In this document: positions 1 through 39,159 of the stretch, in pieces
Numbering within the stretch: position 1 is the stretch's first letter
Layout of the letters: each line of letters begins with the position of its first letter
From: Prorocentrum cordatum
Taxonomy: Eukaryota; Sar; Dinophyceae; Prorocentrales; Prorocentraceae
Direction of reading: 5' to 3'
Length of the DNA stretch: 64,000 nt
Assembly (NCBI GenBank): GCA_963575745.1
Contig: CAUYUJ010007258.1
Span: 62,001-126,000 of the forward strand
Translations under genes and position numbers: made by a program
The notes under the pieces: model-generated
Told to the model about the DNA's origin: nothing
Databases searched by the model: none
Seen by the model: the letters and a program-made list of their open reading frames with translations, nothing else

Positions 1-1
1 A

Positions 2-739
2 CAGGAGCCCGCTCTTGCAGGCGCAGTCTTGCTGTGCCTTTGGGCGCGCCACAAGTCCGCAGCTGTGGAAGCGAAAGTGGACGTGCTCCAGGGCGCCGAC
101 GCGGGCAGGCGCACCGCGCAGGCAACCGCCGCACACGAGGCGCACTCCATCGAGTTGTGGCCATGCGCCCCAAAGGCGTCCAAGCTGCTGTCCACGAGCG
201 CGCGCCCCGAGAGGGGGCCAGTGCAGGTCTGGGTCGAAGGAGGACCAGATGCGCCTTCAATCAAGACCTTCTACCTGCTGCCAGAGTTCAAGCCCCCTGC
301 GGACGCGACGCCCGCCGAGGTGGCAGACCACGATGCGCGGTCGAGAACGCGGAACTGGGATGCTCGAGAGACAATGCACCTCTTCCGGACCGTCAACAGA
401 GTCACGCAGCAAGAGCTCCACCAGAGGAACGAGCGTATTGGATGCGCAGTTGCGCGTATCAACATGGAGCTCCAGGATAAAGAGCTGGCCGTGTGTGTTC
501 CAGGACCAAGCGGGCCAGTGGTCGCCGTGAAGCTGCCCGTGCTGGTGAATGCGACGGACATCAGGCCAGGAGAAGAACTCCTGTGGGAGGCGAGGCCCAA
601 AGCCGCACAGAAGAAGAAGGCGGTCGAGGAGACGTGGAGGACGGACGCGAACAAAAGGGCAAAGGGCAAGGCTTCGGGGCAACCGCCGTCGAAGAAGACG
701 AGGAGTGGCTTCGGCGAGAAAGGCGAGATGTCGCTCTAA
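2..739 (+). CDS. Protein with SET-like C-terminal motif, 5' partial
   Basis: The frame is open from the left edge of the window; the first ATG is at 29, so the true start may lie outside. About 236 residues are visible from that ATG. Near the C-terminus (about residues 175-195) is LVNATDIRPGEELLWEA, which resembles the last strand and GEEL motif that closes many SET domains; the catalytic NHxC-type motif is not visible, so methyltransferase activity cannot be claimed. The tail is lysine/arginine rich and could be a nuclear localisation region. It is the first of four plus-strand blocks in the hairpin-bearing cassette and contains AGNN-loop hairpins at about 57 and 443. The family assignment rests on motif resemblance only. 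Confidence 0.45.
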   Translation, partial: QEPALAGAVLLCLWARHKSAAVEAKVDVLQGADAGRRTAQATAAHEAHSIELWPCAPKASKLLSTSARPERGPVQVWVEGGPDAPSIKTFYLLPEFKPPADATPAEVADHDARSRTRNWDARETMHLFRTVNRVTQQELHQRNERIGCAVARINMELQDKELAVCVPGPSGPVVAVKLPVLVNATDIRPGEELLWEARPKAAQKKKAVEETWRTDANKRAKGKASGQPPSKKTRSGFGEKGEMSL

Positions 740-1148
740 GAAACCGCAGTGGCGGTTGCTCTACGAATTCGTTCCTTGATTCGGTGGTTTTCCGAAACCG
801 CAGTGGCGGGCGTTCAGGCGCCACTCGCTGCTGAATCAGATCGCTTGCGACCGCAGTGGCGGAGTGCCGTAGTAGTTCCTTGTTCGGTTTCGGAGGCCGT
901 TAAGTGTTGCCGCAGTCGCGGATTGCTGACGTCCACGCACTGAGGTACAGGCGAAGCTCTGAGTCCCATGCAGAAGAAGCTTTTGCCCTCACTGCTGTCG
1001 CGCCTCTTCCGGGGAGCGCGTGAGCGCCCTCCTCGCGCCATCTGGGCGCCCCCCTCCGCCCCGTTCCGCCCCCCGCCCCCTTTGCGCGGGAACAGCCAGC
1101 AGCTCCTCGGACCACGCGGCCGCCCGAAGCCCCCCCCCCTGAGTGCAA
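740..1148. other. Spacer without a gene
   Basis: No convincing coding sequence. It holds four AGNN hairpins (744, 798, 851, 910), three of them with an AGTG loop, then a C-rich stretch leading into the palindrome cluster at 1149. Confidence 0.5.
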
Positions 1149-1270
1149 ACGTTCAAAGCAGTCCCCGGGGACTGCTTTGAACGTCCGCCAGCGTTCAAAG
1201 CAGTCCCAGGGGACTGCTTTGAACGTCGGGGAACGTTCAAAGCAGTCCCCCGGGACTGCTTTGAACGTTC
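1149..1270. repeat. Three near-perfect long palindromes (left cluster)
   Basis: Three inverted repeats follow each other: 1149-1184 (perfect, 36 bp), 1192-1226 (arms of about 16 bp) and 1231-1270 (40 bp, 19-bp arms around CC). The shared arm reads ACGTTCAAAGCAGTCCCC. They can fold as hairpins or cruciforms. Two further copies of the same palindrome are at 9660-9738, at the other end of the cassette; I saw none elsewhere. Confidence 0.85.
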
Positions 1271-1478
1271 TCGCAAAGGCGGGCCTCGGGGGGGCGCGCG
1301 CAGACGGAAGGGCGGCGCATGCGCGGATGGGGGCGTGACAATCGATGCAGGGTCTCCCCGCAGATTCAGTCGAGGCGCCGTCTGGCTCAAAGCGCACCCC
1401 TCTCGGACGCGACCTCGCTGCCCGCGCGGCCCTGGTTTCCCGCAGTTGCGGTGGGGTCATCCGCAGTAATTTGCGGAC

Positions 1479-2459
1479 ATGGGTTCTTCGAGCGAATGGA
1501 GCCCTGCGAAGGTGCAGATGGCCTTGTGCATCCACGGGGGGCGGCTTCCGCAGACAACCCCCAACCCCGAGAAGGGCGTCAGAGTGCTTGACGCAGGGCC
1601 CCTTGGGCCAATCACGTTCGCGCACGTGAACATGCAGAAGACATGGTTGCTGAAGGTGTGCGCGAGGGGTAAACCAACGGCAGGAGCGTTGAAGGCTTCC
1701 AAGGTCTGGCAGGACCTCAAGGACACACTGGCGAAACAGGAAGGCGCCGCAGTTGCGGGCGAGGAGAGCGACGATGAGAGAGATGGCGAAGATGACCCAA
1801 TGATGGCCTTGGTCAGTGCTTCGGGCGCCGCGACGAGGCAGGCCGCGACTGTGACGCCCACCAAGAAGCAGGGGACGGGAGAGCGTAGCTCCCACCATGC
1901 CACGAAGACTGGCCTGCCACGAGGCGAGGCTGTGGACAGACACGCGCCCGCTGTGCACTGCGTGCAGATGCCCGCCAGGAGCCGGTTGACGTTTCCAGAC
2001 GACAAGGACGTTCGCCACGTGCGGGCGGCCAGCTTCATGCGGCGGACGCTGTGGCTCGACGCTAAAGACCTCGAGTGGTTGATTTTGACGGTCATGGACG
2101 ACGCGAGCCTCGGCGGGGTGCCTGACATCACGGACGGCGATGAGGACGAAGCCGCAGTCGCGGACGGCGATAAGGGCGAAGCCGCAGTCGCGGACGAGCC
2201 CCCCGTGGCGCAGGGAAGCGGGGTTGGTTACACCGTCGCACGGAATTTCAAAGGCGCTTGGGCGGCCACCACCACGCGCGAGTGCGCCAACCGCGGCAAG
2301 ACGATCGAGATGGAAGCGAAAAAACTGACCAAGAAGAAATGGGAGACAGCGAGGGATGCAAAGGCGTACGACTACGACTGGGTCAGAATCACGGACGAGC
2401 AAAGGAAGCAGGCGGCCCTGGACTACCTCGACGTCGTCGCCCCGTCTCTCCTGCTCTGA
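1479..2459 (+). CDS. Unassigned cassette protein
   Basis: A 326-residue ORF with a clean start (MGSSSEWSPAKVQMAL) and stop. The N-terminal third is a compact, protein-like region. The middle is acidic (EESDDERDGEDD), followed by a basic T/K-rich stretch. A second folded-looking region contains FMRRTLWLDAKDLEWLILTV, and the C-terminal third (GYTVARNFKGAWAA onward) has alternating aromatic and charged residues and ends ALDYLDVVAPSLLL. Three AGNN hairpins lie inside and read as AAVA in frame (1747, 2152, 2182). I do not recognise a family and assign no function. Its place between the SET-like and DDE-like blocks, on the same strand, suggests it belongs to the same multigene unit. Confidence 0.6.
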   Translation: MGSSSEWSPAKVQMALCIHGGRLPQTTPNPEKGVRVLDAGPLGPITFAHVNMQKTWLLKVCARGKPTAGALKASKVWQDLKDTLAKQEGAAVAGEESDDERDGEDDPMMALVSASGAATRQAATVTPTKKQGTGERSSHHATKTGLPRGEAVDRHAPAVHCVQMPARSRLTFPDDKDVRHVRAASFMRRTLWLDAKDLEWLILTVMDDASLGGVPDITDGDEDEAAVADGDKGEAAVADEPPVAQGSGVGYTVARNFKGAWAATTTRECANRGKTIEMEAKKLTKKKWETARDAKAYDYDWVRITDEQRKQAALDYLDVVAPSLLL

Positions 2460-2899
2460 GCTCGAAACCGAACTGGCCGCAGTTGCGGCGACGCCGCAGT
2501 TGCGACGCCGCAGTTGCGGGGCTGAGTGGGGGCGCGGGCGCTGAGGCTCGAGAGGCCCGCGGCGGTTTGAGGGGGCTTTCCGAGGGCCAGAAGTCGCTTG
2601 TCTTTTTGAGGGGTTGGGGCGTTTCACGAGCACACACCCCCGTATGTTTATTGGATGCACGCAGACGCAGAGCTTCGTAGAGATGCATAGAAACCTTGTG
2701 CGCGAGATGAGTGGGGCTTCCGCGCGAGCGGTGTTCAACAAATGTATGTGTCTTCTCTCTGCACCTTTCGTTTGTCCCCTTCCTTCCTTCCCCCTCCTCC
2801 TACCCTTGCCATTGCTTCTCCTTTCCCACCCGCTCCCGCCCTTCACTGTCATGCCCGCAGCCGCGTGCCAGGCCCGAGCCGCTCGGCACGCGGGCGCCC
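2460..2899 (+). promoter_or_regulatory. Spacer with triple hairpin and polypyrimidine tract
   Basis: Starts with three AGNN-type hairpins within 43 nt (2477-2488, 2494-2505 with an imperfect stem, 2508-2519). About 2750-2850 is strongly pyrimidine rich (runs of CTTCC and CTCC) and is followed by AG dinucleotides near 2860. In dinoflagellates mRNAs are trans-spliced to a leader at an AG preceded by pyrimidines, so this is a plausible leader acceptor for the following gene; the exact AG is not determined here. Confidence 0.4.
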
Positions 2900-5890
2900 A
2901 TGGACGCCCCGGTGGGCCAAACATGGCACGGCCGCGAGGACGGCGATCACTTCGAGGTGGAGTGGCTCTGTTACGACAGCGGGGCGCCACCGAGGAAGAC
3001 TAAGCGCGGCACCACGGGGGTCGCGAACATGCTGAGCCGCAGTTGCGGCGCTCATTGCCCAAAAAGATAAAGGTGCACGCGTGTGCGGATTTTCCGTGCA
3101 AGGCGAAGTGGCCGTTGTCGCAGTACGGCGACGTAGAGCCGCCGAGTTTTCACTCGCGGCCATCTACGCGGCGGCCAGACGCAGCTGGACCGCCCGCAGT
3201 TGCGGCCCCCGCAGCAGCAGCAGCAATTCCAGCACCAGCACTTTCTCCAGGAGCACCCGCTGCAGCAGCATGCTCCCGCAGCGGCAGCAGCAGCTCAAGA
3301 CCCTGCGACAGCGCCCGCAGTACCACCACGTCCCCCTCCAGCAACAGCGCTCCCTCCAGCAGCTTCTGCACCCGCCGCAGTTGCGGCTCCCGCAGCACCA
3401 GCGGCAGCTGCATCGGACACCGGCGCCCCCGCAGGGCCATCAGCTCCTGGCGATCCTGCGCCGAAGTCAACCGCGCCCGCAGCAGAAGCACCTCCTCCAC
3501 TGGCAGAGCCCGCCCGCAGTTGCGGGTGGAGCTCCTGGAGGGGTGGCAGCTGGCACGCAGGCGCCACTTGCAGCGCGCATGCCACCAGCGCGACCGCTGG
3601 AGGAGAGCTGGTCCAAGACGCACGTCGCTTTCTTCCCCTGCCCAGACCCGCGGGCAGCAGCCGTAGTGGGGTCGCCCACTGCCGCGGCCTTGTGCCCGCG
3701 GGTCGCGGCGCCACCCCTGGCACCAGAGACAGTAGTACCTCTGGAAGACGGTCCAGGGATGGAGGCCGCAGTGGCGACGAGGGTCCCTGACAGAATTATG
3801 GCGCTCATGAGGGAAATCCTCTCGGAGGGTTCCTACATGGGACACGCGGCATTCGCGCTGTTTGCCTTGCGGTTCGAGCGTCGACCGTGCATGTGGGAAG
3901 GCGAAAACCGCAAGGACATCCTTGATTTCTATGCGCCCTGGGCTTTGGCGACGTGCGCTGAGCCATGCGCCGTCGACGGCGTGGCGTGCGTACTTCGCAG
4001 GGGATCCCGCAAGACCGCGGAGGCTTGGGCGTGGGGGGCGCAGGACCTGTGGCCAGTAACTCCTGAGCACCCTCTCCACGAGATGCGCCACTGGGTGGCC
4101 GCAGTTGCGGTGGGTGCGCCGTGCACGGAGGGGATGGGCCCGTTGAATGAGCTTTACGAGCCTCTAGGCCAGTGGATCGTTGGTACCATTTGCGATGGAA
4201 GCTGCGGCGTGGACCTGATGGCGATGATGTTGCAGAAGCCGCTCAATGCCGAGGCGCGCAGGTGGCTGCGGGAAGAACTCTACGAGTTCGGAGTAGCCCG
4301 CTGGGACGTGCCATGGTTGCGCGACGTGCTCGTCGTCACGCAGGAACTCGACCTCGAGGCTGTGCGCGCGCGCCGCAGTTGCGGGGGCAGCGGCCCTCCC
4401 AGGCCCATCGCCCTGGACGGCGCCGAGGGCGAGGGCAAGCCAACAGAAGCGCCCGGGGGGCCAGGCGCGCCAAGCCCCCTCCTCATGGAAGCGTTGAAAT
4501 GGCCGACGGGTGTGACGGAAGACGGGGCGCTGTTGGCCATGGCTGCGTCCATGACAGAGGCGTTGCAGGAGGAACAGATCAGGGCGCGCGCGCTGGCCCG
4601 CGCGCGCCCGAAGCCCGCAGCTGAGCCTGAGAAGCGCAAGGTATGCCCGCGCACGCTCCGAGACAGGCAGTTGGTGTGCCAGGAGTTGGAGAAGCACGCC
4701 CGCAGTTGCGGTTGGTTGGGCGTTGGCCCTCTGCCACGTAGTTCGCTTGTGTCGTTTTGCGGGCGGTTCGCGCGGCCGAAGGGCTGGGGGTTGGCCCGCG
4801 AGAGGAAGACGGCTGCGCAGTGGTTCTACAGGGGGCGCCAAAAAGATGCAAGGACCGCAGTGGGCGCAACTGGCCAGCGCCGCGGCCGCGGCACGCAAGG
4901 CGCGCCGACGAAGGCTCCATGGTTGGAGGCCGCTCTATACGAATGGTGGTCCCACATGAGGTATTCGGTGGAATGGAAGGCGGCGGCGAAGCGAACCGCA
5001 GTCGCGGAAGAGAAGCCCAACATGCTCGCTAGGTTCTCCCAATCTTTGCTGCTCTCCAAGGCGAAGCAACTCGTCGCGGAGTACTGCGTGGAGGCCATGA
5101 AGCGGGGGATCAAACCGAAAGTGCCGCAGTTGCGTGCCCGGTGGTGGACCAAGTGGCGGCGCTCTTACGGACTGAGCACGAGGAAGCCGAATCGCAAATA
5201 CAAGATCCCCAAGTGGTTGCTCCAATCGCGCTTCGAGACAATGATCCTGAACGTAGCGCGGGTCCGCGCAGCCGCGGAGGAGCTTTTGGGGTGCGACCCG
5301 CACATCCTGAACTGGGGCCAGTCGCCTTTTCACCACAACGAGTCCTCCTCAGCCTCGAAGCCGACCTTGGCTGTGAAGGGGGGCATTGTTTCGCTCGTGG
5401 AGGCGCGCGACGACAGCAAGAGTCGGTGGACCGCCAACCTGACGGTGTCCATCGACGTGGAGGACATCCGCAGTTGCGGACCTCCGCCCGCGGAGCTGAT
5501 GTTCAAGGGGGGGACTGTCGTCGCTGAGGACTTGGCCGCTCATGCCCGCAGTAGCGGCTTCCCGCAATTGGTGAGCACGGCGACGTCTGAGAAGGGGTCC
5601 TACCGCACAGACGACGTCATATCGTTCCTGCGGCGGCACTTGCGGGCATGGCCCGACGACCCGCAGTTGCGGGGGAAGTGGGCAATCCTCATGGCCGATG
5701 ACCGCGGCCCGCGCAAATCTGACGCCGTGCGGAGACTCGGCTGGCAGCACGGCAACGTGTTGATCATTCATGGCGGAGGGGCGACCGCAGTTGCGCCGCC
5801 TGTGGACACGGACTTGAACCAGCGCGTGAAACGCTTGTACATTGCCCTCGAAACCAAAGCGCTGGTGCAGCAGATGGCGTTAGGGGGAAC
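2900..5890 (+). CDS. OTU-like / DDE-transposase-like protein, N-terminal and core part (frameshifted)
   Basis: Reading starts best at ATG 2900 (MDAPVGQTWHGRED) and includes a C/H-rich segment (HACADFPCKAKW) that may be a zinc-binding DNA-contact region. An Ala/Pro-rich linker (about 3150-3530) needs two or three frame changes. From about 3530 the frame is continuous. At about 4190-4210, VGTICDGSCGVDLMAM matches the D-G-x-C motif of OTU-type cysteine peptidases. From about 4640 there is a helix-turn-helix-like region and then a DDE_1/CENP-B-like core: LTVSIDVEDI (first Asp, about 5454), WAILMADDRGPRKSD (second, about 5700) and PPVDTDLNQRVKRLY (third, about 5810). The DDD set looks complete. 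OTU peptidase plus transposase is my inference from motifs. The frame breaks mean a decaying copy or sequencing indels. Confidence 0.55.
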
Positions 5891-5892
5891 AC

Positions 5893-7122
5893 GTGCCGCA
5901 GTTGCGGCGTGCCGAGTGCGCGGATTTGATGGTGTCTGCGCTCAGCAATCTGCAGTTGCACGTGAACGCTGCGCAGGGTTTTCGGAAAGTCGGCATACGG
6001 GTACCTTTTGAGAAGTCTGGCGACCTGGAGATTTGCCGGGAGGCGGCGCAGCTCTGGGAAGCAGGGGGCCTCCGAGCGAAAGTGGATGCCGCAGTCGCGG
6101 AGGCCAGGGAGGAATGCCGGAAGGGGCGCCTCAAGTGGTCGCGCAATGACGTGCAGCGGCTCATATACCAGTACGAGACGCATAAAGCTTCAGATGCCGT
6201 GTTGAACGTGCTCGGAGAGGATGTGCTTGGCCTGGAGCCAGGCAACGAGGAGAGCGACGAGGAGGGCGAGGAGGCCGAGGGAGAGGAGGAGGGCGACGCG
6301 GAGGGCGAGGAGGCCGACTGGGAGGAGGCTATGGCGGAGCATGGCTGGGAGGATGATGGGTCTCGGGAAGAGCAGGCGCCTATGGACTGCGTGGTGGTGG
6401 GCGCCCATGCGGCCGAGCAGGTGGAAGTGGCGACGTCTCTGCAGACACGCTTTGCGAGGTGGAAGGACGGTATGCTGCGCAATGTGGGCATGGGGAAAAT
6501 GGCACAACAATGCCGTGCAGAACAACACAAGCAGAAGAAGCGGCTGCGAGAGCTGGCGCGGGAGGACGACGACCTCCTACGAGCGTTGACTGCCCAGCGA
6601 GACCACGATGCCGCAGTTGCGAAGAAACAGAGGCGCCTGGCAACAGGAGCGAACGACAGGACGAAGGCCCTCCACGACATCAAGAAACATATTCGGGAGG
6701 CCGAAGTTGTTCTGAGGGAGAAGAAGGAGGCCGCAGTTGCGGCGGAGGCGGCCCTGGCTAACAAGTACGCCCTGGCCCAGTGGAACCCAGAGGAGTTTAA
6801 GGTCAAGAAAAACAGGATGGCTGCTTTAGGCCGCATGGCTCGCGGAAAGGGCGTCCTCTCGGATGAACAGAGGGGGGAGTGGGGTTGGTTCAAAACGAAC
6901 TGGGGCGAACAGATGTGCAAGGAGCATAAAGAGCAATGGCCGTTGACGTTTGCTGGGTGGCTGCAGCGAGTCGCCAACGACGCGGCGTCTGGGAATCGCT
7001 CGGCGCTGTCGCAGTTCGTGCACTCGGAGACTGCGAGGACCCTGGGCGGGCAAATGGCTCTGGTGATTCCAGCCATGGCCCCTGCAAGCCGCAGTTGCGG
7101 ACCTGGGGGAAAACCACCATGA
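5893..7122 (+). CDS. C-terminal part of the DDE-like protein (after a frameshift)
   Basis: Overlaps the end of the preceding frame, which otherwise stops at 6011. It continues the same protein logically: right after the third catalytic Asp region the text resumes as PQLRRAECADLMVSAL, and ends in GGKPP at 7122. It contains a helical region (VPFEKSGDLEICREAAQLW), an acidic Glu/Asp/Gly tract (about residues 110-140), a long charged coiled-coil-like stretch (about residues 190-290) and a Trp-containing C-terminal region. The switch happens beside an AGNN hairpin at 5895. With the upstream part the protein would be about 1,350-1,400 residues. An independent gene starting at 5893 is possible but less likely. 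Confidence 0.5.
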   Translation: MPQLRRAECADLMVSALSNLQLHVNAAQGFRKVGIRVPFEKSGDLEICREAAQLWEAGGLRAKVDAAVAEAREECRKGRLKWSRNDVQRLIYQYETHKASDAVLNVLGEDVLGLEPGNEESDEEGEEAEGEEEGDAEGEEADWEEAMAEHGWEDDGSREEQAPMDCVVVGAHAAEQVEVATSLQTRFARWKDGMLRNVGMGKMAQQCRAEQHKQKKRLRELAREDDDLLRALTAQRDHDAAVAKKQRRLATGANDRTKALHDIKKHIREAEVVLREKKEAAVAAEAALANKYALAQWNPEEFKVKKNRMAALGRMARGKGVLSDEQRGEWGWFKTNWGEQMCKEHKEQWPLTFAGWLQRVANDAASGNRSALSQFVHSETARTLGGQMALVIPAMAPASRSCGPGGKPP

Positions 7123-7452
7123 GTCAAAAAGAATGCAAAAACCCGCAGTTGCGGACTCTCGACAGGTCTTGTCGCTGCGCGCCCTGCGGGCGGGTGGCCC
7201 CAAGTGCGTTCCAATGTGTGTGGTGATGCGACAAAATTGTTTCCTCGCCCTCCTCCTGCCACTTCCCCGCTCCCCTTGTCTCCTCGTGCCATCCGACTCC
7301 GACGTGTCCTTCTCTCCTCCCATCTCCCGCCATCTACTCCCATTCTCCTTTTGGGCGCGTCGGTAGCCACCAAGGCTCGACGCGGCGCCCGCGCATCCCC
7401 GCCCGCGGCGACCACGCGGCCGCCTGCGCGTCCGGGATTGGCGTCGCAGGCG
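7123..7452 (+). promoter_or_regulatory. Spacer with polypyrimidine tract before the EEP gene
   Basis: Contains one AGNN hairpin (about 7141) and a long pyrimidine-rich run (about 7229-7350), followed by TCGGTAG at about 7360-7366. The organisation copies that of the spacer at 2460-2899 and fits a spliced-leader acceptor region ahead of a new transcription unit or cistron. No ORF of its own is convincing. Confidence 0.4.
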
Positions 7453-9485
7453 ATGCCGCGCGGAGCTCGCTTCGCTAACACTGTGCTCATCCACGTGGAG
7501 GAAAGCGAAGCCGCAGTTGCGGCAGACGACGAGGAAGCCGCAGTTGCGGAAGATGGCGACGACCAAAGGACGCAAGATGGCGACAGCACCGTCGCGTCCT
7601 CGGCTGCCTCCGCTGACGAGGCGGAGCCACAGGGAGATTCGGAAGCCGCAGATGCGGCAACCAACGAGCCCTACATGCCGAAAGTGCTGTCGAAGACGCG
7701 GACCTGGAGGCGGGCGCATGTCATCGAGACGAGTCGCGTGTCTGAGAAGGAGAGATCTGTTTACGAGGCCGGGCAGAAGAACACGCAAGGCGAAGCGGGG
7801 CGCATCGGCTTCTACGTGGCCAATTTCGGACAGAGCGCACGGAAGCCCGCACAACGCAGAGACGAGTTCGCGCAGATCCACGCCAATCACGCCCAAATCA
7901 TCGCCCTTTGCGAGTGCGGCGACGAGTGCTGCAGGGCAACCTCTGGGGAGGGCGACGCACGCGAGAGCACGGCCGCAGTTGCGGACGAGAAGTTCATGAA
8001 TCGACCCCGATACAACTACTTGTGCGTCAAGGGCGGAGAGCCTTCGGGGACCGTCCTCACTGGCCTCAGAGACCGCAGTGGCGGCCAAATTGATCACGTG
8101 GACTTTACGAGGCTTTTCCACAAGAAGGAGAAGTCGAAGCCGAAGAAGAGGAAGAAGAAAAAATCCGCAGTTGCGGAGGTGGCTGCGCCAAAATGGCACA
8201 ACAAGTACTCGAGGGCGACGGTTGCGCGCATCACCCTGGACGAAACGTTGCCCCATTTGGGGGAATCCTTCAATGCCGTGGCGGTGCACGTCAACCACAA
8301 TTTGGCCAACCAAGACTGGGGCCCGAAGAAACTCCATGAATTCTACGAGTGGCTCGCCGAGTACGTCGCGAAGTGGGACGTCAAAGTCTGCATGGGGGAC
8401 TTCAACATGTGCATGTCCCAGCTCGTGTCCTGGTGCCGCAGTCGCGGAGTTGCGGTGGACGTCGCTGCGTGGACCCCCTGGAAGACAGCCGGCGGCCTGC
8501 CCAGGGCAGACAGTATGGCAATTCTGTTCATCAGTTGCCCTGGGAGATACGAGCTTCGGCATGGCCTGGGCGCCCTGCACGACGGCCCTGGCGGGTTCTT
8601 AACAAACTCCCCTGGCGCCTTGTCCACGCATTCGATTACGCGAATGCGCCTGGGAAGATGCTGCAGACTTACTTGCCGAAGGCTGGTGCCGTCGCAGACA
8701 AGCTTCGCGACTTCGCGATGCCACCTAACGCCTCCGAGGCCGCAGTTGCGGATTTCGAACAAAAGATGGCGCGCCGTGCACGGGGCGAGCGGGCGCCCGA
8801 CCCCTTCCGAGTCAGGCAGGGCAAGCTGGGCGACGCGATCTGGAAGGGCTCCGTCGGCAAGGCGCGAAACGGAGCGCACTTCCCCCCAGTGGCTTTCGCC
8901 CGCAACACGGGTCGCAGATCACCGGAGAAGCTTGCTGAGAGGAATCATAGGGAAAAGAAGCGGAAGCAAGAGAAAGGCGCTTGCAAGGGCGGCCAGAAGG
9001 GCAGCAAAAACGGCGGCGACAAGGACACCGCAGTTGCGGGAACGGGCGCCCAGAGTAACATTGCCCAGAGGGGAGCCGCAGTTGCGGGGAGAGCCGCTGA
9101 GGCTGAGCGACCTTCGACACCGCAGTGGCCGCAGGCTGCCGACGCACACGAGGCGACCACCTCTTATGCCGCAGTTGCGGCTGGGTCCTCTGGCGCCAGC
9201 GGAAGCGGCGCGCGGGGGGCGGAGGATCCCGCGAAGGGGTGGCGCGAGAAAGGGCGGGAGTGGAGGGCGGGATGGCGCGCTGATGAGTGGTCGAGCTGGG
9301 CGGGATGGCGCGCTGATGAGCAGAAGTGGTGGGATGATAATCGCGCCGCAGTTGCGGACAATGCCACGGAGGGTTCGCCTCCTAATCGCATGTGGGCGGG
9401 CATGCCCGACCAGACGCAAAACGCGGGCCACGCGGGGCCGTGGAACGACCGCGTTCCCTGGACCTACGAAACGACACGTTGGTAA
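7453..9485 (+). CDS. Endonuclease/exonuclease/phosphatase (EEP) domain protein, one frameshift
   Basis: ATG 7453 follows the pyrimidine tract; the N-terminus is acidic and carries AAVAAD/AAVAED hairpin translations. The EEP fold begins near RIGFYVANFGQSAR (about 7801), followed by HAQIIALCECGDEC and AVAVHVNHNLANQDW. The diagnostic metal-binding motif KVCMGDFNMCM is at about 8384-8413. The DSMAILFISCPG segment is at about 8509. Around 8600-8640 the frame must change; the second frame carries VHAFDYANAPGKM, a basic K/R-rich linker and a Trp/Gly/Arg-rich tail (GWRADEWSSWAGWRADEQKW), ending at 9485. EEP proteins cleave phosphodiester bonds; in this context a mobile-element nuclease is the likely type, but there is no reverse transcriptase next to it. 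The first frame alone would run to 9651. Confidence 0.6.
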
Positions 9486-9659
9486 TGGCCGCAGTTGCGG
9501 GCAAGTGCAGCAGAAGGTTTGTGGCCGCATTTGCGGACAGCGCTTCGTCGAGACAAGTTGGCAAATCATCATTAACGTCATCGCCGTCTTCCTCATCGAT
9601 CGCCATCACCATCATCATCCTGCAGCTGCTGCCCCCCATGTCGCCTTGTGAGGGTAGCG
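9486..9659. other. Cassette 3' spacer
   Basis: Holds the last two hairpins (about 9489 and 9520, the latter with the variant ATTT loop) and a short CATCATC stretch (about 9570-9625). No gene. Confidence 0.5.
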
Positions 9660-9738
9660 TTCAAAGCAGTCCCGGGGGACTGCTTTGAAGACTGCCTTGT
9701 AGCGTTCAATGCAGTCCCGGGGGACTGTTTTCAAAAGA
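9660..9738. repeat. Two long palindromes (right cluster)
   Basis: 9660-9689 is a near-perfect inverted repeat with the arm TTCAAAGCAGTCC; about 9704-9738 is a decayed copy (TTCAATGCAG / CTGTTTTCAA). Same family as 1149-1270. Together they bracket the ORFs from 1479 to 9485. Confidence 0.8.
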
Positions 9739-9739
9739 C

Positions 9740-10200
9740 CTCTCGTCCTCATTATAAGGGCTTCTGGATTAGGCACTTCCTGGGACAATCCCCTCTGCAG
9801 GATTTCTGACAACGAGCTGCCTCTGAGACGGCAGGCCCAATGCCGCGCCGCTCGGCGATCCCAGAACAAGAACCGGTGCACCCCACTCGACCTCCAGCAC
9901 CAGGTCCCCCCGACGACGACGACGACCTCTTGGAGCCGTCTTGGGGCCGTTTCCGGGCCCTCTTGGAATCGCCTGGGTGACCGATCTCGGGGCTTTATTG
10001 GGATCGTCTTGGAGCCCCCTTGGAACCGTCTTGGGGCCCACCTGGGCATTTCCCAGGGCCCTCCGGCGGAGCCCAAGACGGCCACGAGAGGGCTCCCAGA
10101 GGGGCCCAGTACTTAATGTACCAACCGAAGGCCCGCTGTTGGGCCACTCCTGAAGCCGTCTTGGGGCTCTCTGGCAGCTCGCTCGGGGGCTTCTCGGGGT
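9740..10200. repeat. TTGGAGCCGTCTTGGGGCC-type minisatellite
   Basis: Degenerate short repeats around GTCTTGGGGCC and CTTGGAACCG, densest from about 9925 to 10200. Related wording recurs at about 25060-25200 and 53750-54260. Long open frames here come from repeat composition, not coding selection. Confidence 0.6.
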
Positions 10201-11677: not shown

Positions 11678-12784
11678 GTGCCCCATAGCATGTTGCGGCG
11701 AACGCGCCTTGCGACATCTCGATATGGAGTGGTGGAACTTATCAAGCTATTGAGTTTTCTTCCATTTGCGGCGTCATTGGCGCTGCCCTCAGTCGCTTCT
11801 CATCGCGAGTGTAAGCCGGAAGCGACAACTAAGTATTCAATTCGTTGGGGCGCGAAGCCCTCAGGGATGGGAAACCTATGGGAATACTATCACTTCTTGA
11901 TCGATTTTGCACCAGCTATGTTGCACTTCATGCGCAACGACAGCGCGCCCTGCAAAAGTTTGCAGGTGCCAGACTGGCGCAATCACAAGTTCCTCTTGGC
12001 GTTGCCGGGCCAGCCGCAGAGGAGTATGGAAGCGCACTTTGAGTTCCTCTTGGGGCGGCCGTTGGGTCTGACCATCGAAGTCGCCAGCAGCTTTGAGGCC
12101 TTCGCGGCGAACGCCAGGACGTCGAGGCAGGTCGACTGGGACTGCCACGGCGCAGGCCAGTCGAATGCGTGGTCTGGATTCCCCAAAGAGTACTTCGTGG
12201 AGTTCCGGGACCACGCCTGGGGCCTGCCCGGCGTGCCGCCAGCCCGGCACCGGGACGTCATCGCTGTGAAGCGCGGATACCTCCAGAACTACACGGGCCC
12301 ACCCACGGGGTGTTCTCGTCGATGCCTGGACGAGCGCTTCTACTATCGCCTGCTTGAAGTTTCGCTATCGCACGACTGGGACACGTCTGTGGTGGCGCTG
12401 GAAAATCAAGCTATTGCCGACCAGATCGCCTTGTTTTCGCATGTGAATGTCATTATTGCGCAGCATGGCGCCGCGCTGTCGAACATCATCTTTGCACCTC
12501 CAGGAACGCTGGCCGTCGAGGTGGGAAAGGCCGACTTTCCATGCTTCCAGACGTTATCTGCAAAACTTGGGTTACCTTTTCTCCATTACGGTAAGTATGA
12601 GTTTTCAGACCACGTTGCACAAGGCATCTCGAAAGCGTTAGCAGATGACGTCGGCAGAGGCGACAAGCAGTTAAGGGAGCTTCGCGACGTCATCGGGCGG
12701 TTCGTGCTGCCTCCACAGCAGCGCGCCTCCCACGTGCGCTGCCCCGCTTTCGCAACGTGCGTGGGGCAGCAGTTCGGGCAGTAG
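11678..12784 (+). CDS. GT61-like (DUF563) glycosyltransferase retrogene, copy 1
   Basis: A single-exon ORF of 368 residues with no frame break. A hydrophobic N-terminal segment (about residues 19-37, LIKLLSFLPFAASLALPSVA) looks like a signal peptide or signal anchor for the ER/Golgi. The C-terminal third carries the GT61 signature: IADQIALFSHVNVIIAQHGA (about residues 246-265), then ALSNIIFAPPGTLAVEVG, like the HGAxLTN...F..PG..V.E pattern of this family (plant xylosyltransferases, EOGT). GT61 enzymes transfer sugars to glycans or glycoproteins in the secretory pathway; the donor and acceptor cannot be read here. ATG 11678 lies 51 nt after the leader; an in-frame ATG at 11690 is an alternative. 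The expected catalytic region is complete, so the gene may be functional. Confidence 0.8.
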   Translation: MPHSMLRRTRLATSRYGVVELIKLLSFLPFAASLALPSVASHRECKPEATTKYSIRWGAKPSGMGNLWEYYHFLIDFAPAMLHFMRNDSAPCKSLQVPDWRNHKFLLALPGQPQRSMEAHFEFLLGRPLGLTIEVASSFEAFAANARTSRQVDWDCHGAGQSNAWSGFPKEYFVEFRDHAWGLPGVPPARHRDVIAVKRGYLQNYTGPPTGCSRRCLDERFYYRLLEVSLSHDWDTSVVALENQAIADQIALFSHVNVIIAQHGAALSNIIFAPPGTLAVEVGKADFPCFQTLSAKLGLPFLHYGKYEFSDHVAQGISKALADDVGRGDKQLRELRDVIGRFVLPPQQRASHVRCPAFATCVGQQFGQ

Positions 12785-15964: not shown

Positions 15965-17071
15965 GTGCCCCATAGCATGTTGCGGCGAACGCGCCTTGCG
16001 ACATCTCGATATGGAGTGGTGGAACTTATCAAGCTATTGAGTTTTCTTCCATTTGCGGCGTCATTGGCGCTGCCCTCAGTCGCTTCTCATCGCGAGTGTA
16101 AGCCGGAAGCGACAACTAAGTATTCAATTCGTTGGGGCGCGAAGCCCTCAGGGATGGGAAACCTATGGGAATACTATCACTTCTTGATCGATTTTGCACC
16201 AGCTATGTTGCACTTCATGCGCAACGACAGCGCGCCCTGCAAAAGTTTGCAGGTGCCAGACTGGCGCAATCACAAGTTCCTCTTGGCGTTGCCGGGCCAG
16301 CCGCAGAGGAGTATGGAAGCGCACTTTGAGTTCCTCTTGGGGCGGCCGTTGGGTCTGACCATCGAAGTCGCCAGCAGCTTTGAGGCCTTCGCGGCGAACG
16401 CCAGGACGTCGAGGCAGGTCGACTGGGACTGCCACGGCGCAGGCCAGTCGAATGCGTGGTCTGGATTCCCCAAAGAGTACTTCGTGGAGTTCCGGGACCA
16501 CGCCTGGGGCCTGCCCGGCGTGCCGCCAGCCCGGCACCGGGACGTCATCGCTGTGAAGCGCGGATACCTCCAGAACTACACGGGCCCACCCACGGGGTGT
16601 TCTCGTCGATGCCTGGACGAGCGCTTCTACTATCGCCTGCTTGAAGTTTCGCTATCGCACGACTGGGACACGTCTGTGGTGGCGCTGGAAAATCAAGCTA
16701 TTGCCGACCAGATCGCCTTGTTTTCGCATGTGAATGTCATTATTGCGCAGCATGGCGCCGCGCTGTCGAACATCATCTTTGCACCTCCAGGAACGCTGGC
16801 CGTCGAGGTGGGAAAGGCCGACTTTCCATGCTTCCAGACGTTATCTGCAAAACTTGGGTTACCTTTTCTCCATTACGGTAAGTATGAGTTTTCAGACCAC
16901 GTTGCACAAGGCATCTCGAAAGCGTTAGCAGATGACGTCGGCAGAGGCGACAAGCAGTTAAGGGAGCTTCGCGACGTCATCGGGCGGTTCGTGCTGCCTC
17001 CACAGCAGCGCGCCTCCCACGTGCGCTGCCCCGCTTTCGCAACGTGCGTGGGGCAGCAGTTCGGGCAGTAG
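15965..17071 (+). CDS. GT61-like glycosyltransferase retrogene, copy 2
   Basis: The predicted protein is identical, residue for residue, to that at 11678-12784: N-terminal hydrophobic anchor and the HGAALSN / APPGTLAVEVG signature. The upstream 5' UTR and downstream 3' UTR duplications are also preserved. Because the insertion hallmarks are present in both copies, the duplication happened after the retroposition. Identical proteins could reflect youth, gene conversion or selection. Confidence 0.8.
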   Translation: MPHSMLRRTRLATSRYGVVELIKLLSFLPFAASLALPSVASHRECKPEATTKYSIRWGAKPSGMGNLWEYYHFLIDFAPAMLHFMRNDSAPCKSLQVPDWRNHKFLLALPGQPQRSMEAHFEFLLGRPLGLTIEVASSFEAFAANARTSRQVDWDCHGAGQSNAWSGFPKEYFVEFRDHAWGLPGVPPARHRDVIAVKRGYLQNYTGPPTGCSRRCLDERFYYRLLEVSLSHDWDTSVVALENQAIADQIALFSHVNVIIAQHGAALSNIIFAPPGTLAVEVGKADFPCFQTLSAKLGLPFLHYGKYEFSDHVAQGISKALADDVGRGDKQLRELRDVIGRFVLPPQQRASHVRCPAFATCVGQQFGQ

Positions 17072-19635: not shown

Positions 19636-20035
19636 CCGTTCGCGATGTTTCGCGCGGTTTGCCTGCTCGCATGCCCAAAATCCTCCGCTTTCGGAGCAGA
19701 TTTGGAGGATGTGTCGAGCGAGGCGCTCATTTTGGGGGGGCCGCCAAGGGCATTGCACGGCCTCCGTTCGCGCCAAAATGGCGGGGATGCCTCGAGCGGT
19801 TTGCCTGTTTGCATGCCCAACATCATCCGCTTTCGGAGCAGATTTGGAGGAGAGCGAGGCGTTCATTTTCGCCCCCTAGGGGGGAGGGCCAGAATTTGAG
19901 GATGTCTCGGTCGGTTTGCTTGTTCTGGTGGCCAGCCTCGTGGGCACATATTCTCCCCAGGAGGCTCCAGCAGGCTCCAGGAGGCCCCAGGAAGCCACAT
20001 GAGGTCCCAGGAGGCAGCAGGAGGCCACAAGAAGA
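19636..20035. repeat. More GGAGCAGATTTGGAGGATG units and CCAGGAGG tract
   Basis: 19640-19930 has two diverged units of the roughly 120-bp repeat. 19960-20035 is a short CCAGGAGGC minisatellite like that at 11316. The order (unit, minisatellite) matches the left flank of the retrogene and suggests an older, third relative of the duplicated block without the gene. Confidence 0.55.
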
Positions 20036-36160: not shown

Positions 36161-39159
36161 TGACTCCGGTCAGGCAAGATCCCGTCTGGATCGGATCTAC
36201 ACGAGCATGGATGGCAGCGAGCTCCTGGACAGGCAAATCACAGCTGGAGTAAGGGAATGGGTTCCTCACCTTTCGCACCGTCGCGCCATGTTCTTCCACG
36301 CCGCTCTGCCCAGGAGATGGGCATTGGACTCCGTTCCATTCCGGCGGACATCGCGAGCCGGCCTGGCTGGCTCCAGCGCGTGAGCCTTCGGTACCACGAG
36401 CTGCTGGACGACGCCGTCCGGCACGCCCGACCCTCCGGCGTCGCCCAGCTCAGGCTCCTGAAGCAGACCATAAGGGAGGTATCGGATGAGCTCGCCTTCC
36501 ATGGCCAGAGTCCTGCCGCAGAGACCTTTGAAGACAATCTTGGGTACACGATGCGCTTTATTCGTGCTGTGGAGTCTTCCGCTTTCAGCGGCATTGGGAA
36601 ATGCATCTTCGCTTACCCTTACTTGACGGAGCTGGTGAACAACCCGTACTGCCCCTCTCTTCGGGAGGGCGTTGCGCTGGCAGGTGTTCGTCAGCATGCT
36701 GTTGCACTCGCTCGGGATCAAGCTGTTCGGGATCTTACCCGGCTTCGGGGCGACCTCCCAAACCTCTCTGACCAGGAGGCGGCGGCACGCTGGGACAAGA
36801 ATAGCAGATTGTTGAGCCGCTTGGTGCCCGGCAAGGGCAAGTTTCTGACTGCCACGCGAGGGGAAGGGGGCGATATCCCTACGCGTCCTGAAGATATGGC
36901 TTCGGACCTCTGGAACCACTGGTCCAAAAGTGTTCCGTTCGCGGCCTACGGACCCCGCTCTTCGAGCGCAGTGGCTCGCCGAAGACCTCCCTCGCAGGTC
37001 CAACTCGTTGCCGTCGTGCTCTTCTCGCTGGGCGCCCTCTCGCGGCGACGTCCGCAAGGCTCTGGAGCGCTCGGGTTCGTCCACGCCAGGCCCAGACGGC
37101 ATCCCCGCCGCAGCTTGGAGAGCCCTCGGCCCGTTGGCCGAGAAGGTATTGCACGAACCATTGTCGGCCATGTCGGGGCCAGAGTACAACTTGTTCAACG
37201 AGGCGCTCCTCTTCTTCATCCCCAAGAAAGTTTCGGGGCTCGACGACGCCATGGGCGAGTACTACGACCCGGAGCACACCAGGCCGACTGCAGTTACGAC
37301 CTTTGACAATCGGATCCTTGCGAGCGCGGTTCGCTTCAGGATCGAGCCGATCTTGGCAAAATGGGTGTCACCGAAGCAGCGCGGATTCATCGGGGGGCGT
37401 TCCATGTTGGCGAACATCACCGACATTGATGAGATCATGCAGCACACGGCATTGGGTTACGACGACGGTTTTGCATTTATGTTCGACTTCAAGGCGGCGT
37501 TCCCCAGCATCGACCACGCGTTCATGATGGACTGTTCGCGCACATCGGGCTTCCTGATGTCATTATTGGCTTCATCTGGGCGCTGTATTTCCAGAACCAC
37601 TGCAGCATCGTCGCGGGCGGCGCCCGCCATGAGGGATTCGCCATCACCGCGGGCATCCGCCAAGGGTGCCCGCTTTCCCCGCTGCTGTTTGCAGTCGCGG
37701 CAGAGTTGCTGCTTCGCCGTTTGGGCCGGCTTCTCCCGTCCGCGGACCTGAGGGCGTGCGCAGACGACCTCGCCTTGGTCTCCCGGGCAGGAATCTGTGA
37801 CTCGAGAGTCATGGAGCCCATCCTCGAAGAGTACGCCCTCCTGTCTGGTCTACACCTGCACTTGGGGAAGACGACGGTCGCCCCGTTGCACATGGAGCAG
37901 CCTGGGGACTTCAGGGCTCGGCTCGCGCGCGCTGCGCCATCCCAGGGAGGAGTGCGGGGTGCGACTTCGGCGGAGTACTTGGGCTTCGTCCTTGGGCCAG
38001 GCAGAGGCGCGCCTTCCTGGGATCGGCCTTTCCAGAAATTCGGGAGCCGGGCAACGGCCTGGGGAAAGGTGGGCTGCGGGCTACAGCTGACGCTGCTAGC
38101 ATACAGAACCTGAATATTCTCAACTGTGCTCTTCGTCGCTCAGCTGGACTCCCCGCCGCCCCAGTGAGTGGGCCGCCGCGGAGCGGTCAGCTGCAGCCAG
38201 ATTGCTTCCTGGACCGCGATGGTGGGCGTCGATTCCGGCGCAGCGGGAGTTGCACCACCCGGGATTCCAAGGCGGGCTCCTTGATTTGGACGTGTACTCA
38301 TTGGCAGCTAAGTACAGGGTTCGAACACAGGTTGCGTGGAGGCTTGGGCGCTCGTGCACGGGCTCGCGCCCTCCGCCGTGCGAAGAGCTCTTGCGATTCT
38401 CTGTGGCGAAGAGCGTCCATGGCGCCGCGGTTCGACTCTGCCTTCATTCTCCAGATGGATTCCGCCGCGGACCACTTCGAGCGCGCCGGCCTGTCGCATC
38501 AACGAGTCCAAGAGCGCATCTTGGGGCGCGCGGGCCGGCCATCCGCAGAACAGGAGATTTTTCTACGTCGCCAGTGGCAATGGTCAGGCAGATCGGAGCT
38601 GAGGCCTTCCACCCATGCTATTCTGCACCAGTTCATGCGGAGGCATCTGGCGCGGTGTGACATGCCCCTGTTTGAAAGGGTTCGCGCAGAGCGCGCGTTG
38701 CTGGCACTGCCGTCCCTTAGCTCGGTGCTCCCAGCCCGGGATCGAGCAGCAACCCCCCGGACCTGGTGGAATGGCTGGGTCACGAGACGACGCTTTCAAG
38801 ACAGGAGCCCAGGGTGCATATTTGGTTGTGTGTGCCAGGACAGCATCGAACGTTACGATTTCTGCCCAGTTGTGCGGGAATTCGGCTCCCGATTCTGCGG
38901 CCTGGTCGCGACGGTCGGCAACGGGGTCATGGAAGATTTCCTCAATCTGGAGCCGCGGTATTCGGCGGGCGCTCGTGATGTCCTGGCGCGGAAAGCGATC
39001 CGGCTGGCAGCTGTATCTATCACGCGTTGCCGGTGCAGGCACACTGTTTCGCCGGCGCCCGTCGCCTGGCAGGCGCTGGCCCACGCGGCCCGCGAGCTCT
39101 TGCGCGGGAGCGGCGCCGCCACGAGCTGCTTTGCTCGAGCGTGGGCTCCGCAGCAGTAG
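36161..39159 (+). mobile_element. Non-LTR retrotransposon 1, 5'-truncated and frameshifted
   Basis: Order of parts: end of an EEP nuclease (SRLDRIYTSMDGSELLDRQI, then PHLSHRR, about 36178-36285); linker; reverse transcriptase from about 37070 (SSTPGPDGIPAAAWRAL, TRPTAVTTFDNRILASAV, QRGFIGGRSMLANITDID, FMFDFKAAFPSID at about 37478, GIRQGCPLSPLLFAVAAE at about 37646, ACADDLALV at about 37754); thumb; and a zinc-knuckle-like CIFGCVCQDSIERYDFC (38815-38865), ending at 39159. The catalytic Asp in FDF and the ADD box are present. At least five frame changes (near 36300, 36950, 37530, 38113, 38300) mean this copy cannot make one protein as it stands. Confidence 0.8.

Follow-up and report, generated by a model that had tools for sequence, protein, structure and literature searches.

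The first 9.5 kb of a 64,000-nucleotide stretch of the Prorocentrum cordatum genome (assembly GCA_963575745.1, contig CAUYUJ010007258.1, positions 62,001 to 126,000; hereafter the window) carry a dense series of short hairpins, each a four-base-pair stem capped by a four-base loop that mostly begins with AG, and the series faces one way. The locus raises the question of what carries these hairpins, what keeps them and what could read them. Our analysis demonstrated that they belong to a large multi-gene transposable element, and that this oriented, structured tag array is under purifying selection at the sequence level. The tags are proposed to act in the sense RNA of the element.

An oriented hairpin array in a large transposon

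The pattern CCGCAGTNGCGG was found 38 times in the window, always on the + strand and between positions 744 and 9500, where 0.09 copies were expected from 100 dinucleotide shuffles (largest count, 1). A wider pattern, CCGCNNNNGCGG, gave 47 matches in 64 kb, 42 of them at or before position 9525. The loops of these 42 were AGTT (27), AGTC (6), AGTG (4) and one each of AGTA, AGAT, ATTT, GCGA and GGCC; 39 begin with AG, a property of none of the five matches beyond 9.6 kb. The opposite orientation, CCGCAACTGCGG, had no match in the window at zero or one mismatch. An earlier, sequence-only reading of the window had described a dense series in about 9.5 kb, loops that start with AG and vary in their last bases, and a missing complement orientation, and all three descriptions were confirmed. 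The copy with a GCGC stem and an AGTT loop that it had mentioned was located at 444..455 on the + strand as GCGCAGTTGCGC. Its span for the array, starting at position 57, was not upheld: the item at 57 is a degenerate CCGCAGCTGTGG, 21 more CCGCAG..GCGG copies lie in the 4.9 kb immediately upstream of the window (L037), so that the array starts before it, and the element ends at 9769. In the family of elements concerned, referred to as family A, the loop is A-G-T-N: positions 5 and 6 of the 12-mer are nearly fixed, position 7 is T with some C, and position 8 is variable with T preferred.

The carrier is a transposable element with many copies rather than the single gene cassette first supposed. 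Nine family A elements or parts of elements were read, namely W (that of the window, with 10 kb upstream), C226, C15, C84, C4, C182, C303, C2736 and C7102, and the aligned clusters are copies of one large multi-gene element with identities from more than 90% (W–C226) down to about 68% (W–C15). Positions 1..9769 (+) of the window are the right-hand part of copy W, as judged by homology to the C226, C303, C15 and C7102 copies. This homology starts about 4.9 kb upstream of the window, giving an element of at least 14.7 kb in all. W seems to lack its left end, since nothing homologous to the initial 2.2 kb of C226 turned up in it. A pattern for the conserved DQSPFHHN block of its transposase-like gene, open reading frame (ORF) E, occurred at 249 + 264 = 513 genomic places, families A and B (a second family, described below) counted together, against 0 for the control. 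The element family has some hundreds of genomic copies.

The right terminal inverted repeat, ATCCAGAAGCCCTTATAATGAGGAC, read on the − strand at 9745..9769, matches the left ends of C226, C4 and C84, and is followed at 9770..9771 by TA, presumably a target duplication. The terminus ATCCAGAAGCC or a close variant, such as ATCCAAAAGTC in C15, was present in inverted relation at seven ends of families A and B (three left, four right). TA stood outside six of these seven ends, pooled across copies rather than paired within one copy, and the left end in C226 is flanked by TC instead. L061:1065 and L056:1877, which resemble the terminus only weakly, were excluded from these counts. Two subterminal palindromic repeats (TTCAAAGCAGTCCC..., repeat family D9) at 9653..9739 are also present at left ends. 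Inverted ends with TA outside most of them would suit Tc1/mariner-pogo-like (ITm) transposons, and so would a putative D..D..D arrangement in one gene, judged by eye, whose spacing of about 35 is diagnostic of that group. The present element differs from them in its size of about 15 kb or more, its several genes, the lack of a Pfam DDE match and its hairpin array. Palindromic repeats of about 42 bp, of the TTCAAAGCAGTCCCCGGGGACTGCTTTGAA type, were noted at three internal places (1145–1270) as well as at the two places at the element end; the internal trio may be a nested insertion.

The same one-sidedness was observed in every copy counted. Sense and antisense occurrences of the core CGCAGTNGCG were 65/0 in W, 61/1 in C226, 53/0 in C15 and 30/0 in C84, or 209 sense to 1 antisense in these four elements, and 42/0 and 31/0 in C2736 and C7102, respectively. 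Equal frequency on both strands of homologous copies, the outcome named beforehand as refuting selection on RNA structure, was therefore not seen. The whole assembly (4.128 Gb, 21,875 contigs) was also searched, with the reversed word as a control. The AGTT form, CCGCAGTTGCGG, was found 9,622 + 10,869 = 20,491 times against 457 + 462 = 919 for the control, and most of these occurrences belong to copies of the one giant transposon family. The excess of the AGCA form, CCGCAGCAGCGG, was modest (15,283 against 12,336) because CAG-rich words are common. The genome-wide excess of AG loops that had been expected is thus present for both loops counted.

Of the first 100 CCGCAGTTGCGG places listed, 66 fell in six clusters (C4, C15, C84, C165, C182 and C226) and 34 were isolated. 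Eight of the isolated places were fetched (L001–L008), each without a second copy in 3 kb; such places may be chance matches, remnants of decayed elements or something else. Pairs of CCGCAGTTGCGG also occurred in 28 viral contigs (L009–L036), with starts 21 bases apart in 27 of them. These pairs perhaps belong to another gene, a conserved gene of phages or bacteria; among the 98 pattern matches in viral contigs, tblastn found no relative of ORF E.

Constraint on sequence and pairing

The long ORF E frame of C303 contains 14 hairpins, which fall in phases 0, 1 and 2 in the ratio 4/6/4, and four hairpins of the window (744, 798, 851 with AGTG and 910 with AGTC; 744..921, +) lie in a spacer between two genes. 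As the sequence-only reading had argued from the phases and spacers, neither one peptide nor the reading frame explains them. Selection on the protein or on codons for Ala-Val-Ala (AVA) and similar peptides, one of the alternatives it offered, gains something from phase 1 (AVA) being the most common phase in several genes. Three different peptides are encoded by the three phases, and with phases pooled, positions 2, 5 and 11, each the last base of a codon in phase 1, are nearly as invariant as the others, whereas position 8 varies. On these grounds and the spacer copies this alternative was rejected, and we give it almost no credence.

Conservation of the 12-mer was measured between copies with position 8 left out, and all or GC-matched windows served as controls. 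Identical sites numbered 26 of 34 for W–C303, 25 of 33 for C226–C303 and 11 of 12 for C226–C84; in the comparisons with C15 they numbered 7 of 13 for W, 9 of 15 for C226 and 10 of 15 for C303. In the controls for these six pairs, 2–10% of the 12-mer windows were identical at a background divergence of 23–30%. For the closer pair C303–C84, 22 of 23 sites were identical against 36–37% in the control. The contrast was weaker in the young pair W–C226 (92.8% identical), with 35 of 47 sites against 48%, as expected if recent copies decay neutrally. The site sets overlap between pairs, and the comparisons are accordingly not independent. Position 8 varies and most other positions hardly do. The AG of the loop in particular, whose conservation between copies had been proposed as a check, is nearly invariant at positions 5 and 6, and conservation of the asymmetric AGT centre is close to that of the arms.

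Very many copies, a length of 12 and occurrence in all phases would also suit a frame-neutral 12-bp palindrome that spreads by insertion, and so would the 34 isolated places among the first 100. In 500 cross-subfamily site comparisons, which cover hairpins within aligned blocks, 358 sites were identical at the 11 fixed positions, 22 had an insertion in the alignment and 30 had a gap of 1–8 bases, but none had a gap of at least nine bases. No precise 12-bp insertion or deletion was found between W and C226 either; the few gaps touching hairpins belong to longer or shifted gaps. Lacking a single clean presence/absence pair in these 500, spread by insertion of the 12-mer, a second alternative of the sequence-only reading, was rejected and is very improbable. 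Rickettsia palindromic elements and mitochondrial GC clusters are likewise short frame-neutral palindromes inside genes, but those are insertions, whereas no insertion footprint was seen here.

Pairing was followed at the outer base pair, which was tallied at 166 distinct sites in the nine copies. The states common to at least two copies were C-G (81), G-C (7) and C-C (2), with nothing else, and one site reads T-A in C15 and C-G in five other copies. Counts rose to 128 C-G, 13 G-C and 2 T-A when single-copy states were included. The hairpin at 444..455 is a case of a compensated outer pair, with the same state, GCGCAGTTGCGC, at the homologous place in C226 and C303. In the whole assembly, occurrences minus those of the reversed control were 20,491 − 919 = 19,572 for C-G, 2,742 − 1,349 = 1,393 for G-C, 402 − 311 = 91 for T-A, 748 − 673 = 75 for T-G, 1,217 − 711 = 506 for C-C and 1,006 − 963 = 43 for G-G. 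The double change to G-C thus exceeds the single changes leading to it. At least 24 of the 100 listed C-C places lie 455–469 bases from a listed ORF E motif place and represent one inherited site. Stem covariation, a second check that had been proposed, is therefore seen in the outer pair. Outside the 4-bp stem, flanks in family A paired no more than chance would allow, a slight excess at the first additional pair having failed to hold, and no known RNA family reached its gathering threshold in the window.

The second family, B, provides a further view of the motif. Elements L058, L059 and L060 encode a related ORF E, 35–49% identical to the family A proteins over longer alignments; as read, the family also has a related ORF G (L058) and a terminus of TA followed by ATCCAGAAGCC (L064), and no nucleotide match longer than 250 bases to family A was found. 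The three elements contain 17, 18 and 11 copies of CCGCAGCAGCGG, respectively, with none antisense, and only two or three AGTA hairpins each, so that the loops are AGCA at 46 places and AGTA at 7. Elsewhere, CCGCAGCAGCGG was on the + strand in 43 of 43 cases at 694.6–717.7 kb of C114, and on the − strand in 19 of 19 among the matches listed at 28.2–37.9 kb of C146. The 23 kb in C114, of which 707–720 kb was read, are likely one element.

The stems of the two families differ: those of B are longer and site-specific, whereas those of A have 4 bp only. Over 55 places in three B copies, stems extended on average by 2.49 bp; exchanging flanks between sites brought this to 0.89, and the largest value in 200 such swaps was 1.31. 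At 25 distinct sites, pairs 1–4 outside the core were Watson–Crick in 74 of 100 cells against 51.8 expected. The predicted stem probability was 0.81 and 0.86, compared with about 0.5 for shuffled flanks and 0.81 and 0.72 for the antisense strand. A 21-bp stem stands at L058:3657 and at L059:3298, two closely related copies that differ in its loop, one having AGTA and one AGCA. Repeats of the CCCCTCTGTGACAGAGGGG type were seen in L060 and L064. In L064 they adjoin the right end, a place at which the subterminal palindromes of family A are of another kind.

Peptides of relatives found elsewhere suggest that the array is probably common to the superfamily. Other data sets yielded ten proteins related to ORF E or ORF C (P0001–P0010), and the three hairpin-encoded peptides are enriched in them. 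AVA was above the shuffled expectation in 10 of 10 relatives, weakly in P0004 and P0010, whose counts were equalled or passed in 29 and 31 of 300 shuffles. Seven of the 10 contained RS[CRSG]G and six contained PQ[LSW]R, where at most 0.12 occurrences were expected. The search for relatives needs shared five-residue words, which may bias these counts toward such peptides, and some of the sites are inherited.

Candidate readers of the hairpins

Taken together, the fixed orientation relative to the genes, the conserved asymmetric loop and the changes that keep the stem paired favour hairpins formed by the sense transcript. We propose that the 12-mers would be cis-acting tags of a superfamily of giant transposons with terminal inverted repeats. 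In the sense transcript, each tag would fold into a four-base-pair stem closed by an AGNN loop, which is AGTN for A and, frequently with a longer stem, AGCA for B, and some 40–60 tags over the whole transcript, in genes and spacers alike, would bind an RNA-binding protein. Two families that keep different loops in one genome argue for a family-specific reader, which would thus probably be element-encoded. Through it, the RNA of the element, or its own locus by way of nascent RNA, would be identified as self and then collected, shielded, exported or packaged. Such recognition could serve the assembly of a ribonucleoprotein (RNP) or bring proteins back to the locus of origin. RNA as the acting molecule, an element-encoded reader and what binding achieves are what we infer from these patterns, and we put the probability of the full mechanism, an RNA self-tag read by the element, at roughly 0.45. 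A functional hairpin in the sense RNA of some kind, whether read by the element or by the host, is probable. That the families of the superfamily each read their own loop on 40–60 mini-hairpins to form an RNP or particle or to gain cis-preference is a more tentative suggestion.

Several observations weigh against this proposal. Position 1 of the 12-mer is changed at 5 of the 13–15 sites in each comparison with C15. Including single-copy states, the outer pair is single-changed or unpaired in 16 site-states (CA 4, CC 4, TG 3, CT 2, GG 2 and AG 1), and site 5785 (+) keeps an unpaired C-C in W, C226 and C303. Because the inner pairs hardly vary, firm covariation is confined to the outer pair of A and the extensions of B. 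In family A, the predicted probability of the stem in its context is only 0.34–0.46 (four copies); shuffled flanks gave higher values in three of these copies and a slightly lower one in C15, and the sense strand scores below the antisense strand in all four. The ratio of G.U to A.C within stems, which could tell RNA from DNA, is 11:3 at the inner pairs of A, but its outer pair gave 3:4, and family B 13:7 (p 0.26). A CpG-matched subset gave 8:1; with the outer pair and family B included, the pooled 27:14 is weak and no more than suggestive, and strand-biased mutation could yield it. Finally, no binding protein was identified: Pfam, with the element genes as queries, stayed below cut-off, a PDB profile search gave nothing better than E 0.13 for ORF E and nothing for ORF G, and the AlphaFold model of P0001, a relative of ORF E, had a pLDDT of 43.6 and was unusable.

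The covariation itself is open to another explanation, since dyad symmetry of a DNA site would also produce it. The motif could act in DNA as a near-palindromic, polar binding site for a protein, such as a transposase complex, a chromatin or anti-silencing factor or a directional motor. Its CCGC/GCGG arms are dyad-symmetric and the outer pair varies symmetrically, as at a site bound by a dimer. The ends of the element are inverted and TA-flanked, and prediction gives the sense strand of family A no folding advantage over shuffled or antisense sequence. En/Spm-type transposons carry multiple short subterminal binding motifs. Nearly every copy of the present motif, however, faces the same way along the whole element and not only near its ends, and a centre as asymmetric as AGT is about as conserved as the arms. 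In family B the helix is extended by flanks whose sequence changes from site to site, a feature for which a fixed DNA site has no need. We regard action in DNA as unlikely. The sequence-only reading had taken the pattern to point to selection on RNA structure rather than to a DNA palindrome; selection on a structured motif with an AG loop and a sense orientation stands, while RNA as the actor is a probable reading that rests mainly on the orientation.

If the hairpins do act in RNA, a host factor could read them in place of an element protein, for export, stability, escape from silencing or translation. The evidence from orientation and selection applies equally to such a reader, and loops start with AG in both families. 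Families A (AGTN) and B (AGCA 46, AGTA 7) share a genome yet keep their own loops, and one common host reader would not account for that difference unless its recognition were limited to the AG and the stem. Reading by the host is in our estimate unlikely.

A particular host reader had been suggested by the AGNN loops, which recall the sites at which yeast-type RNase III (Rnt1p) would cut the transcript. Rnt1p is reported to favour NGNN-capped stem-loops; the first 5 base pairs are required, and pairing across the first 7 is preferred (PMC4334505). The AGTN and AGCA loops agree with this preference by sequence, and the hairpins share with the Rnt1p substrates described there an AG-first loop, a GC-rich stem and the stem-loop form. 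Many stems of family B reach 7–9 bp, and one place 21 bp. At least five base pairs below the loop are present in many B copies but not in family A, whose stems stop at 4 bp and so fall short of the 5 bp named for Rnt1p. The array also runs through genes, where cutting in the middle of messages and in all phases would destroy them. The link to Rnt1 is accordingly not sustained, and cleavage by such an enzyme is quite improbable.

Under the proposal of an element-read RNA tag, the array would work most like the dispersed packaging signals of RNA phages. Such signals, in MS2 and other RNA viruses, are several short stem-loops spread through the RNA genome and are read by a protein encoded by the same genome (PMC8472981). 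The present carrier differs in being a chromosomal DNA element with inverted ends, known from DNA copies, with nearly invariant hairpins and with no capsid or coat protein known. Selection and covariation of the stem-loop were seen in DNA copies, and the folding predictions for family A lend no support. HIP1 of cyanobacteria and DNA uptake sequences are also thousands of short palindrome-like words in genes and spacers, but the hairpins described here are concentrated in one transposon superfamily, have one orientation and differ in loop by family. We know of no DNA transposon with such a hairpin array. No similar array was found in the open-access literature searched with a few word sets, which is weak evidence of absence; the 12-mer itself occurs in one paper there, on Bdellovibrio.

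Genes of the element and significance of the array

All genes of copy W in the window lie on the + strand. The 3' part of ORF C (29..739) encodes a conserved protein to which no family could be assigned; its C226 counterpart has relatives (P0004–P0010) with 34–58% identity, and its C303 counterpart had no Pfam match. ORF D (1479..2459) had no Pfam match. ORF E (3081..6011) has relatives in public protein data with 75% (P0001), 74% (P0002) and 38% (P0003) identity, and a second protein search with an ORF E alignment returned the same three proteins only. Its continuation, a helical, coiled-coil-like part at 5893..7122, is in another frame in this damaged copy but in one frame in P0001. ORF G occupies two frames, 7204–about 8560 and 8349–9485, and is the gene found also in family B.

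No element gene had a match reaching the cut-off in the Pfam scans, and a DDE/D domain was not matched in ORF E even at E 10. By eye, ORF E has conserved blocks WDQSPFHHNE, MADDHxPH and PVDTDLNQ, and a D..D..D arrangement with a putatively OTU-like DGNC block, labels not confirmed by Pfam, PDB or AlphaFold. ORF E is called only transposase-like because these three sources gave nothing usable. An MGDFN block in ORF G is presumably endonuclease/phosphatase-like, a label also given by eye and unconfirmed by the searches. The 5'-most family A gene in C303 (L061:4279–5421) has a Gly/Trp/Arg-rich stretch followed by a domain present also in C226 and C84, and is by eye a candidate RNA-binding protein.

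The remaining hairpins of the window, all on the + strand, are distributed along these genes and their spacers. Those at 1440 (in a spacer) and 1747 (in ORF D) have AGTT loops (1440..1758), and are followed by 2152 and 2182 with AGTC (2152..2193) and by 2477 and 2508 with AGTT, between which a degenerate copy lies at 2494 (2477..2519). AGTT is also the loop at 3037, 3194, 3375 and 3514 (3037..3525). Within the transposase-like gene are 4099, 4373 and 4700 with AGTT and 4996 with AGTC (4099..5007); then come 5468, 5661 and 5896 (AGTT) with 5546 (AGTA) at 5468..5907, and 6089 (AGTC) and 6731 (AGTT) at 6089..6742. Two pairs with AGTT loops stand at 7089 and 7143 (7089..7154) and at 7511 and 7538 (7511..7549), both members of the latter being identical in C226. 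Farther along are 7973 (AGTT), 8073 (AGTG) and 8165 (AGTT) at 7973..8176, and 8436 (AGTC), which is identical even in the diverged C15, with 8740 (AGTT) at 8436..8751. The series closes with 9028, 9076, 9169 and 9346 (AGTT; 9028..9357) and, past the stop of the last gene, with 9489 (AGTT) and a decayed copy at 9525 (ATTT), at 9489..9536. Two AGTT hairpins lie behind the same last gene in C303 (joined positions 19806 and 19842).

Beyond the element, two tandem open frames at 11678–12784 and 15965–17071 read as the same 368-residue protein, the first of which matched glycosyltransferase 61 (PF04577, E 4.2e-12), and frames at 36257–37751 resemble by eye pieces of a non-LTR reverse transcriptase.

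DNA transposons are usually seen as ends plus a transposase, with the transcript only a message. Here, selection acts at the nucleotide level on the whole gene-sense strand of a family of elements of about 15 kb, and the tag differs between two families of one genome. Should the hairpins act in DNA after all, a dense, oriented and covarying tag array in the genes of a mobile element would still be new to us. If the proposed RNA self-tag is correct, DNA transposons would gain a self-recognition device that we know only from RNA viruses and retroelements. It would offer an answer to how an autonomous DNA element gains cis-preference, and a family-specific pair of hairpin and protein would be the thing to seek.

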